NCBI GenBank assembly: GCA_902774115.1
Contig: CACYHH010000001.1
Span: 1 to 64,000, forward strand
Reading direction: 5' to 3'
DNA: 64,000 bases
Source: an uncultured Spirochaetales bacterium
GTDB lineage: Bacteria; UBP6; UBA1177
Of the stretch, positions 60,320-64,000 are shown piece after piece. Position numbers and translations under genes: made by a program. Numbering within the stretch: the stretch's first letter is position 1; each line of letters begins with the position of its first letter. Under the pieces are notes generated by a model. The model made no database searches. It was not told the DNA's origin and saw only the letters and a program-made list of their open reading frames with translations.

Positions 60320-61308
60320 TTTAATTTGAAATTCCTCAGTTCGCAGTTGTGGAGAAAATCTTTTATTTTTAAGAACGCTTCCTTGTCCGGAGCAGACGTG
60401 ATCAGCTCTGCCGGAGACTTTGTTTTCGGGTCAAAAAGTTTGGCTGAGAGGGATTTTGTCATCGGTATCGGTCTGCAGCCGTTTTTAAGAAGCGAGAAAA
60501 AACGTTTTGCCGACCATGTCAGGACTGTCGTTCCGGATGGCAGTTCCGAAAAATCGGAGAAAGTTTTTCCGCGTGCCCCCAAAAGCCTGGTAAACTGCGC
60601 CGTTCTTTCGGAAGCCGTGTAGCAGTCAGCCGTTTTTTTCGGCGAATATACTAAAATTTTTCCGTGTCTTTCATCCGGAATATAGGAGTTGTAAAAGCGG
60701 ATGAGTGCTTTCGTGAGCTGGAGCGGACTTCTGAAAAAACGCAGATATCTCGCCGGAACGGAATCGGGCGGCGCGTCTATCGCAATGATCCCGTTGAATT
60801 CAGGAAACTGCGGCACTTTTGCTGCCTGAAACGCCGGTTTTGCAGCGTCTTCGAAATCCAGAAACGAAGCCTCGTGAAAACCGAGATCGAGTGCGCCGCG
60901 GACGATCGATAGACCTGATTCCGGAGCGAGCCTGCCGAAGGAAAAGAAAGTCTTTCCGCTTCGGAAAAGGGCTTTTCTGATGTAAAAACTTTCGGGAACA
61001 AAGCTTTCTTCGACAAAGAAAACGGTGCTCTTGTCTGCATCCGAAAGAATTCGGTCAAGAATTATCTTCTGTATCGAAAGGAGTGCAGCCGGATCGGTTT
61101 TTCCGTCACGCAGATAGGCTTTTTCAAGCGGGTCAGCCTGAGTTTTGTCAAAAACGAAATACTCTGAAATATCTTCTGTGATGATGCACTTCTTCACCGG
61201 GAAAAGTTTCGTTTTTATTCCGGAGCACCCGAGCTTTTCAGCTATTTTTTCGGCATCGGCTTTTCCCGAAAAATAAATGATGTTTGCATTGTAAATCATT
61301 GTATTCAC
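60316..61308 (-). CDS. Unknown protein in the UbiA-EtfB operon
   Basis: This is a 330-residue protein I do not recognise. It has no signal peptide and no membrane span, and is rich in Phe, Lys and Ser. Segments such as FFSFGRLAPESGLSIVRGALDLGF and FNGIIAIDAPPDSVPARYLRFFRS suggest alternating beta-alpha structure. It probably starts with GTG at 61308, overlapping the UbiA-like stop (GTGA), or ATG at 61299. It overlaps etfB by 4 bases. Such tight packing implies a shared function. It lacks the EtfA FAD motifs, so I do not call it EtfA. Confidence 0.7.
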   Translation of the reverse strand: MNTMIYNANIIYFSGKADAEKIAEKLGCSGIKTKLFPVKKCIITEDISEYFVFDKTQADPLEKAYLRDGKTDPAALLSIQKIILDRILSDADKSTVFFVEESFVPESFYIRKALFRSGKTFFSFGRLAPESGLSIVRGALDLGFHEASFLDFEDAAKPAFQAAKVPQFPEFNGIIAIDAPPDSVPARYLRFFRSPLQLTKALIRFYNSYIPDERHGKILVYSPKKTADCYTASERTAQFTRLLGARGKTFSDFSELPSGTTVLTWSAKRFFSLLKNGCRPIPMTKSLSAKLFDPKTKSPAELITSAPDKEAFLKIKDFLHNCELRNFKLK

Positions 61309-62177
61309 TTGATTAAATTTGCAAGATCAAAAATTTTCGCCGCTATGAAAACTATTCCGGCGGCAAAGTAAAGTATTCTGTAAAAACGTCTCTCTTCAAG
61401 GAATTTCGCCTGAGCCGGAAACTTTTTGAAAGTGCATATTTTGAAAATTATGTGGATAAATCCCGCGATTATGAAAGGAAAATATGTAAAAAGAAGCTCT
61501 TTTTCAATTAGCGGAAGAATCGAAATATAGAGCGTGGCGAGCGTAAAAAGTGCGAAGGAACCCTTTTCCCATGCGGAGACTCCGAAGCAGACCGCTCCCG
61601 TTTTTATTCCGCTTTTTTCATCGGCATCGTGGTCTATAAGTTCGTGGTTTATGTGTCCGGCTGAAAAAAGGAGCGCGAAATAAACGGACGCGGCGGCACT
61701 TTTTCCGTCAACAGGTGCGAGAACGGCGTAACCCATGAGAAAGTGTATGATCTGACCGATGAAATGTATCAGCGTTCCGAGGAGCGGACGGTATTTGAAC
61801 CCTTTTTTCGGGAAGGAATAAAGGCACCAGAGCAGAAAACTTACGGCTGAAAACGCGGCAAGGACCGGTTTTATCAGAAAGAAAAGAACAAACGAAAGCA
61901 GAAGCGAAACCGCAAGAGTCGCGATGAAGGAACGGCGTTTCCCTGCGAGGTCGGCAAGGCGCGAATTGTTTTTATCGTCTTCAGTTCCTGACAGACCGTT
62001 GAATGCGTAAATCGCCGTAAAAAGCGAGAAGATCGCCGCTGCAAAAAGGAAAACAGGGAGCGAAACAAGCTCTTCAGCCGATTTGAATGCAAAGAAAAGA
62101 CCGATCATCGGAAATCCCAAAAGTATTGAAACTTCGGCGAAACGGGCCGATTTTATAAAGGCGGAAACGTGCTTCAT
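61305..62177 (-). CDS. UbiA-like prenyltransferase family membrane protein
   Basis: This is an integral membrane protein of 290 residues with about eight spans. The second Asp motif is plausible (NHELIDHDADEKSGIKT, with D182, D184, D186). The first motif, normally NDxxDxxxD, reads NGLSGTEDD (60-68), so two aspartates are replaced by Gly. Canonical UbiA enzymes move prenyl groups to aromatic rings or sugars and need both motifs, so activity is doubtful or altered. ATG at 62177 follows GGAGG. It is the first gene of the three-gene operon. Confidence 0.78.
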   Translation of the reverse strand: MKHVSAFIKSARFAEVSILLGFPMIGLFFAFKSAEELVSLPVFLFAAAIFSLFTAIYAFNGLSGTEDDKNNSRLADLAGKRRSFIATLAVSLLLSFVLFFLIKPVLAAFSAVSFLLWCLYSFPKKGFKYRPLLGTLIHFIGQIIHFLMGYAVLAPVDGKSAAASVYFALLFSAGHINHELIDHDADEKSGIKTGAVCFGVSAWEKGSFALFTLATLYISILPLIEKELLFTYFPFIIAGFIHIIFKICTFKKFPAQAKFLEERRFYRILYFAAGIVFIAAKIFDLANLIK

Positions 62178-62270
62178 CAAACCTCCGAAAAGCATTTGCT
62201 TATACTTCAAAAATAAAAATAGTAAAGAATGGTTTGTTCTCATTTTTCCGCGTAACGGACCGGCTGATTT

Positions 62271-62299
62271 TTGACTAAATTATTTCTTTGGTATATAAA
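62271..62299 (+). promoter_or_regulatory. Promoter of the 5'-nucleotidase-family gene
   Basis: TTGACT (62271-62276), a 17-base spacer and TATAAA (62294-62299), 28 bases before the ATG at 62327, with GGAGG between. Confidence 0.65.
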
Positions 62300-62326
62300 A
62301 CCTCCGTTTAATTTTTGGAGGTCTTT

Positions 62327-63871
62327 ATGAAAAGAAATTTTTTGGTTTTTCTCTTTGTCTGCGGTCTCAGTTTTTCGCTTTTTGCGGAGCCGAGACTCCT
62401 GACGATCCTTTTTACAAACGATTCCCACGGCATGGCTTGGGCGTTTGACGCTCCCGACAGTCCGAAAACAGGCGGTCTTGCAGCACAGAAAACCCTCATC
62501 GAGCAGATCAGAAACGAAGTCCAGCTGACAAACGGCGACGTTGTGGTGCTTAGCAGCGGAAACGTAACGATGGGTGATCCGAGAAGCAATGTCTGCGAAA
62601 ACCTGCCGATGATAACAGGCATGAACCTTATCGGCTACGACGGAATGCTTATCGGAAGCCATGAATTCGACTTCGGAATGAAGACTTTCGAAAAAATGCA
62701 GAAAGAGGCGAGATTCCCGTTCATGGCGGCCAACCTTTTCTACAAAAACAACAAACAGGTCGGAAAATCCTTCATCCAGAAAGAGATGATAAACGGCGTT
62801 AAAGTCGCTTTCGTCGGCATCACGACTCCAGAAATCGAAAAAATCTCCAACGCCGGCGTTGAAGGGCTCGTAAAAGTTCAGGATCCGATCGAAGCAGCGA
62901 AAAAAGCTGTCGAAGAACTCAAGAAAAACAACGATTTCGTAGTTGTTCTTTCAAACCTCGGCTACTCTGACAAAGATAAGGATGCGGACGGTTATCCGAG
63001 CGACAGAATGCTTGCTAAAGAAGTTCCGGGAATAGATCTTATCATCGGCGGACGTACGAAAATCCAGATGGATGAGCCTGTTTACGTCAACAATGTTCCG
63101 ATAATCCAGACGGAAGGACTCGGAAAGTGGGTCGGCAGATTCGATTTCTACTTCGAAGGCAAGGAGCTCGTTCAGAAAAATTTCAAACTTTACCCGATAA
63201 ACATCAAGGAAAAGATAGTTAAAAGCAACGGCAGCGTAACTTACGAAAACAGAGGCAAAGACCTCGTTGAGAACGAAGCTATGCTGAAAATGCTCAATGA
63301 TTTCAACTGCGAATTTTCGACTCAGGTTGTCGGCGAACTTTCCGACTCTTTCAACGGCGAAAGAAATTTCGTCCGCAATAATCCTTCGACTTTAGGCGTT
63401 TTCATTGCATCGGTCATGAAGGAAAGAGCAAATGTCGACATCGCTTTTGCAAACGGCGGAGCGATAAGACAGGGGCTCAACCGCGGCATAGTCAACGAAA
63501 TGGATATCTACAGCGTTTTCCCGTTCGAAGACACGATTGTTACGGGCTCTATCTCCGGTTCACAGCTTGAGGAAGTCATCAACCAGTCAATTAAAAACAA
63601 AGGACAGGGCGGTTTCCTTCACTTCTACGGTGTTGACTTCTCTGTTTCGGGCGGCAAAGCTTCGAACATTAAAGTCAACGGCGCTTCACTTGATGCAGGC
63701 AAAACCTACACATTTGCAGTCAATTCCTTTGTTGCAGGCGGCGGTGACGGCTTCGAAATGATGCCGAAACTCAAACTCAACGACACAAAAATTTCGGTTC
63801 CGGCAGCTGTAATCGAGTACATCAAACGCGAAAAATACATCGAACCCCCGAAAGTTTCAGCCGGGAAATAG
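62327..63871 (+). CDS. Secreted 5'-nucleotidase-family protein with degenerate metal site
   Basis: This is a 514-residue exported protein with a signal peptide to about residue 20. The fold is that of UshA/YfkN 5'-nucleotidases. The N-terminal metallophosphatase domain starts LLTILFTNDSHG (D32 and H34 kept). The C-terminal substrate domain has NGGAIRQGLNRG, YSVFPFEDTIV and AGGGDGFEM. Most metal ligands are lost: GDxxxG reads GNVTMG (N79), GNHE reads GSHE (S111), SHLG reads SNLG (N210), and GGHTH reads GGRTK (R243, K245). It is probably a substrate-binding or structural pseudoenzyme. It is monocistronic. ATG at 62327 has GGAGG upstream. Confidence 0.9.
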   Translation: MKRNFLVFLFVCGLSFSLFAEPRLLTILFTNDSHGMAWAFDAPDSPKTGGLAAQKTLIEQIRNEVQLTNGDVVVLSSGNVTMGDPRSNVCENLPMITGMNLIGYDGMLIGSHEFDFGMKTFEKMQKEARFPFMAANLFYKNNKQVGKSFIQKEMINGVKVAFVGITTPEIEKISNAGVEGLVKVQDPIEAAKKAVEELKKNNDFVVVLSNLGYSDKDKDADGYPSDRMLAKEVPGIDLIIGGRTKIQMDEPVYVNNVPIIQTEGLGKWVGRFDFYFEGKELVQKNFKLYPINIKEKIVKSNGSVTYENRGKDLVENEAMLKMLNDFNCEFSTQVVGELSDSFNGERNFVRNNPSTLGVFIASVMKERANVDIAFANGGAIRQGLNRGIVNEMDIYSVFPFEDTIVTGSISGSQLEEVINQSIKNKGQGGFLHFYGVDFSVSGGKASNIKVNGASLDAGKTYTFAVNSFVAGGGDGFEMMPKLKLNDTKISVPAAVIEYIKREKYIEPPKVSAGK

Positions 63872-63992
63872 CCCGTTCTCTGTTTTTTTCATCAATATTT
63901 ATTTTAATTTCAAAAAATATTGTTAAGATACTTCGCTTTTGCGCTTTTGTGCTTATATTGAATGAGCGTTGCTTTTTAATTTAGGAGAAATA

Positions 63993-64000
63993 TATGAGAT
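63993..64000 (+). CDS. Start of the next gene (truncated by the window)
   Basis: TTTAGGAGAAATAT followed by ATGAGAT at 63993 gives a good ribosome site and start codon. Only three codons are visible, so nothing can be said about the product. Confidence 0.5.

Follow-up and report, generated by a model that had tools for sequence, protein, structure and literature searches.

A conserved UshA paralog of candidate phylum UBP6 with a stepwise-lost di-metal centre

The window, by which we mean the whole 64,000-nucleotide stretch of DNA analysed here, encodes near its end a secreted UshA paralog in which most ligands of the di-metal centre are replaced. The altered copies replace catalytic or cofactor residues of their active relatives, are under purifying selection and make up a clade of pseudoenzymes inside the UshA family. 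Pseudoenzymes are already known among metallophosphoesterases: VPS29, a component of retromer, has the calcineurin fold and is not an active metallophosphatase, and weak metal binding at its altered site persists in vitro even though activity is lost (PMC3101248). VPS29 shares with the altered paralog the metallophosphoesterase fold and a changed metal site, which in VPS29 has Asn at position 39, and its fold is kept for a non-enzymatic role. However, it is a eukaryotic, cytosolic protein of a distant superfamily branch, without the 5'-nucleotidase C-domain. No described metal-less secreted member of the 5'-nucleotidase family was found in the open-access literature. The gene and its signals were located as follows.

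62271..62299, + strand: promoter TTGACT (62271-62276), 17-nt spacer and TATAAA (62294-62299), from a genus footprint
62317..62321, + strand: ribosome-binding site GGAGG, from the sequence, invariant in 12 species
62327..63871, + strand: coding sequence of the metal-site-less UshA paralog, 514 aa, ATG start, orthologs in 18 genomes
62327..62386, + strand: signal peptide, residues 1-20, predicted cleavage between SLFA and E, same pattern in orthologs
63326..63763, + strand: 5'-nucleotidase C-terminal domain with kept R346, R350, R381, F400, F468 and D474, from Pfam and alignment

The reading frame runs from the ATG at 62327 to a stop at 63869-63871. A longer start, the TTG at 62315, is unlikely and overlaps the ribosome-binding site. 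The TTGACT-N17-TATAAA/G footprint was conserved in most members of the genus, and the DNA farther upstream diverged. The preliminary description had spoken of a good promoter, which is reasonable as a genus-conserved footprint, but a strict consensus scan reported none upstream of the altered gene because the -10 element, TATAAA, lacks the T at position 6. The signal peptide, also proposed there, has a typical n/h region ending in the SLFA-E pattern common to the orthologs; it was read from the sequence and not with a dedicated predictor, and the AF2 model placed a helix at residues 2-16 with low confidence. An Rfam search of 61000-64000 gave no structured RNA match.

E. coli UshA (PF00149 and PF02872; structures 1ush and 4wwl) is a 5'-nucleotidase/UDP-sugar hydrolase. 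The altered paralog is likewise a secreted protein with a Metallophos N-domain (PF00149, 27.7 bits, cut-off 21.5) and a 5_nucleotid_C domain (PF02872, 110 bits), and shares with UshA whole-length homology, the signal peptide, the H117-D120 dyad, D41/H43 and the nucleotide pocket. Its closest solved relative was 1ush (E=1.6e-68, residues 24-479), and the AF2 model (mean pLDDT 82.5, pTM 0.74) best matched 4wwl, an intermediate form of UshA, with a TM of 0.83. The fold and the C-terminal domain are therefore kept, as had been claimed. In contrast to E. coli UshA, five of seven metal-ligand positions are replaced (by N, S, N, R and K) and the NCBIfam UshA score is about half, 319 bits against a cut-off of 600 for the equivalog NF007109. 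This shortfall alone is not decisive, because the intact paralog of the same genome also fell short (387 bits). The altered paralog also falls outside the divergent UshA-like PCGU (seleno)protein family NF041198, which it matched weakly (106 bits, far below the cut-off of 275).

The ligand and dyad positions were placed by alignment.

62420..62428, + strand: kept ligands D32 and H34 (UshA D41, H43)
62561..62563, + strand: N79 (UshA D84, the bridging metal ligand), in all 18 orthologs
62657..62659, + strand: S111 (UshA N116), in family f1 only, N in f3
62660..62671, + strand: kept catalytic dyad H112...D115 (UshA H117, D120)
62954..62956, + strand: N210 (UshA H217), in all 18 orthologs
63053..63055, + strand: R243 (UshA H252), in family f1 only
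63059..63061, + strand: K245 (UshA Q254; H in CD73-type enzymes), in all 18 orthologs

Ligands were numbered on E. coli K-12 UshA from NC_000913, in whose sequence the positions were checked. The alignment gave D84 to N79, N116 to S111, H217 to N210, H252 to R243 and Q254 to K245, exactly the five metal or catalytic changes that had been noted earlier; of the di-metal set (D41, H43, D84, N116, H217, H252, Q/H254) only D41 and H43 are kept. Octahedral two-metal coordination by two Asp, three His and one Asn is the defining feature of extracellular 5'-nucleotidases, and in a modelled member Asp101/Asn135/His238/His269 bind one metal, Asp55/His57/Asp101/His271 bind the other, and the phosphate is contacted by His136 and Arg437 (PMC11708047). 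With ligand roles taken from that model, the UshA equivalents are Asp84/Asn116/His217/His252 for one metal and Asp41/His43/Asp84/Q-or-H254 for the other. On this map none of the four ligands of one metal survives in the altered paralog and only two of the four of the other do; the phosphate-touching His and Arg are kept.

The preliminary description had allowed that different residues might supply the ligands. At the sequence level no replacement ligands were found: the clade comparison revealed no invariant D, H or C that only the altered clade has gained, evidence against a relocated metal site, and no clade-specific D, E, H or C in the N-domain as migrated metal ligands. The only new invariant E residues, E337 and E502, both lie in the C-terminal part, and the polar residues specific to the clade are N69, N79, K140, N210, K245, Q333, E337 and E502. 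Metal ligands were over-represented among the positions fixed differently in the two paralog clades (Fisher p=0.008 for the whole clade, p=0.002 within f1), although a looser enrichment test counting majority changes was not significant (p=0.06). Judged from the sequence, it is almost certain that the di-metal centre does not work in the normal manner, and canonical catalysis has likely been lost.

A contig scan recovered 13 loci, mostly in ruminant rumen or gut MAGs and two of them titled UBP6; the UBP6 genus UBA1177 has been reported from the rumen (PMC7820578). We compared 28 genomes of the candidate phylum, a poorly known set of bacteria from guts and from the environment, and these contained two classes of UshA copy. 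The altered class was present in 12 of the 15 genomes of the genus, in one of the four other genomes of family f1 and in all five of family f3; 17 of these 18 copies were full-length, and one f3 copy was truncated at a contig end. Intact copies were found in 23 of the 28 genomes, including 17 of the 18 with the altered copy. The intact paralog in the window's genome (G000:C3:104972-106477, L045) is 48-50% identical to the altered copy, belongs to its sister clade, shares its domains and secretion, and keeps every ligand. That genome also encodes three more distant proteins of the 5'-nucleotidase family (L003-L006) with 24-26% identity, at G000:C3:78240-78791, C2:37843-38343 and C2:43300-43632.

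A further three genomes of the family yielded no altered copy. Its syntenic site upstream of ftsH is present without the gene in G022 and G015, which marks it as an accessory, sometimes lost gene; the two genus genomes without it at this site are 97% and 84% complete. About 165 genomes outside the phylum yielded only five matches (33-36% identity), none with the altered residue set. UshA relatives from other phyla keep the ligands, except G124, with E at D41 and at Q254, and plasmid and phage relatives were under 60% identical. One locus titled Candidatus Sumerlaeota in GenBank (L018) has the same sequence as G012, which the genome collection puts in the window's own family, and its GenBank title is probably outdated.

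N79, N210 and K245 were identical in 17 of 17 full-length orthologs and in the truncated one, across several genera and two families, and S111 and R243 were confined to family f1. Intermediates with N at 116 and H at 252 (the set N, N, N, H, K) were seen in G005 and four full-length f3 sequences. In a maximum-likelihood tree built without the ligand columns and rooted on UshA homologs from other phyla, the altered copies formed one clade (support 99/93) with the intact copies as its sister (99/98); an earlier tree with poorer, distant outgroups had weaker support (95/79 and 90/92). Since each clade spans f1 and f3, the duplication predates the f1/f3 split, and the two copies arose by a UshA-type duplication in the ancestor of a UBP6 order. 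Ligand loss was stepwise: D84N, H217N and Q254K preceded the f1/f3 split, and N116S and H252R followed in f1. Single ligand deviations also occur in the intact clade, H43 to Gln in G004 (L037) and Q254 to Ser in G014 and G020 (L054/L055).

Selection was estimated by pairwise Nei-Gojobori dN/dS among ten genus members, whose 45 pairs share ancestry and are not independent. The altered copy had a median dN/dS of 0.048 and the intact copy one of 0.063, and dN was lower in the altered copy in 39 of the 45 pairs. Orthologs write R243 as CGT, CGC, AGA or AGG; K245 is AAA or AAG, N79 and N210 are AAC or AAT, and S111 is AGC or AGT, these four residues showing only synonymous changes within their clades. 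The use of several synonymous codons indicates that the replacement residues themselves are maintained. A pseudogene or sequencing error was ruled out by the intact frame, the 18 genomes and an omega of about 0.05. Loss of the di-metal centre and, as previously proposed, selection on the altered protein are upheld by clade-wide fixation, the intact paralog in the same genomes, a dN/dS of about 0.05 and the lack of replacement ligands. That the gene is a decaying duplicate heading for loss is highly improbable and, for the genus, already refuted by purifying selection. Its absence from some family genomes and its longer root-to-tip distance in f1 (0.77-0.93, against 0.63-0.76 for the intact copy) would fit decay, but the frame is intact in all 17 full-length orthologs, omega lies below that of the intact paralog, the replacement residues are fixed, and the promoter and ribosome-binding site are conserved.

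Outside the metal site, the His-Asp dyad (H112, D115) was retained in every member of the altered clade. The UshA nucleotide-pocket residues R375, R379, R410, F429, F498 and D504 correspond to R346, R350, R381, F400, F468 and D474, positions of nucleotide contact in UshA structures. The Phe residues that stack on the base are thus kept, as is the interdomain architecture. In family f3 the first of these six positions is K and the fifth Y, and most g1 genomes have D or E at the position of R346 in their intact paralog. Conservation is lower in the C-domain, the seat of the nucleoside site, than in the N-domain: the two paralogs of the window's genome are 58% identical in the N-domain versus 40% in the C-domain, and within the altered clade f1-f3 identity is 56-61% versus 47-52%. 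In family f3, all four intact copies (L056, L057, L059, L060) have Phe at the dyad Asp (UshA D120) and His at the Q254 position, with the other metal ligands kept, so that the dyad partner is gone from the "active" copy and kept in the metal-less one.

The preliminary description had proposed a non-enzymatic role such as nucleotide sensing or binding. Its premises of di-metal loss and selection are well supported. Sensing or binding of nucleotides is plausible, because the C-domain contact positions are kept, but no more than that. On the best reading, the altered paralog probably binds a nucleotide-like ligand. Our preferred explanation, which we regard as somewhat probable, is that it is a pseudo-5'-nucleotidase secreted to the periplasm, which gave up its di-metal centre step by step and now serves as a receptor or reservoir for nucleotides that needs no metal. 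Without metals the protein would be unable to perform canonical phosphomonoester hydrolysis. Its two domains would still close on a nucleotide- or phosphate-bearing ligand in the interdomain cleft, where H112, R381 and the new K245/R243 may hold the ligand phosphate in the kept pocket, K245 (with R243 in f1) supplying the positive charge formerly given by the metals. Such a protein could signal or compete beside the catalytic paralog. A more specific version, in which side-chain cations replaced the metals of such a receptor in order, K245 first at the D41/H43 metal site and R243 later at the other site (both placed by sequence alignment), is conceivable but doubtful.

Several observations count against the receptor explanation. 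The altered gene is dispensable in some genomes of the family. VPS29 retains weak metal binding in vitro although its metal site is altered (PMC3101248). The lower conservation of the C-domain is not predicted by a role resting only on nucleotide binding; with the metal-less N-domain the better conserved, the protein must do more than bind through its C-domain. The kept H112-D115 dyad could mean residual chemistry.

This last observation is the starting point for the view that the protein is still an enzyme, with the dyad and K245/R243 acting on a different phospho-substrate by chemistry that uses a single metal or none. No altered member lacks the dyad, though the intact f3 paralogs have lost its Asp; D32 and H34 are also kept, and pseudoenzyme reviews warn of migrated catalytic residues (PMC10211241). 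However, one metal has lost the bridging Asp and all its other ligands, and the clade has gained no invariant D, H or C. In the enzyme model, H117 also contacts the substrate phosphate (PMC11708047), so that binding alone explains its retention. We therefore regard continued catalysis as quite unlikely.

The domain conservation makes a scaffold or protein-interaction role the main rival: the dead metallophosphoesterase fold would serve as a protein-binding surface, located, for instance, on the intact UshA paralog or an envelope protein, or close to FtsH. Such a role is also suggested by the intact paralog alongside in 17 of 18 genomes and by the precedent of VPS29, with its Asn in the altered metal site (PMC3101248). 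In the genus, ftsH is the next conserved gene downstream, starting at 63994 in the window's genome (L061) and lying about 20 bp from the altered gene in L011 and L012. However, the linkage is broken by inserted genes in several other species and was not seen in the searched flanks of G012 or family f3, and the link to ftsH is only a lead. The nucleotide-pocket residues, kept throughout, would be needless for a pure scaffold. We consider the scaffold role unlikely, if still to be taken seriously.

Other features of the neighbourhoods were also recorded. A small insertion hot spot separates the altered gene from ftsH (L007-L017; e.g. L013:7611-8459): species of the genus have acquired different genes there, and the spacing varies between about 20 bp and more than 5 kb. 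In two f3 genomes a putative ankyrin-repeat lipoprotein gene (L063:8713-9870, L064:6187-7326) lies next to the altered copy in divergent orientation; two other f3 genomes have only a 35%-identical ankyrin match about 2 kb from the altered copy. In f1, f2 and f3 the intact paralog is flanked by a hexapeptide-repeat (gamma-carbonic-anhydrase-like) gene on one side and a PfkB kinase gene on the other. The best solved match of this kinase was adenosine kinase 3ubo (1.1e-46), which suggests a salvage route from extracellular nucleotide to nucleoside and re-phosphorylation. An operon of the altered copy with these salvage genes was ruled out, as it never adjoins the PfkB or carbonic-anhydrase-like genes.

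The altered clade has an intact sister copy alongside it in the genome, shows two living stages of ligand loss and conserves its replacement residues tightly, which makes it a clean natural experiment in turning a di-metal enzyme into a binding protein. If side-chain cations did replace the metals, the sister-family intermediates (N, N, N, H, K) would make the conversion traceable step by step. The clade is also a warning for annotation, as rumen genes called UshA need not be nucleotidases.
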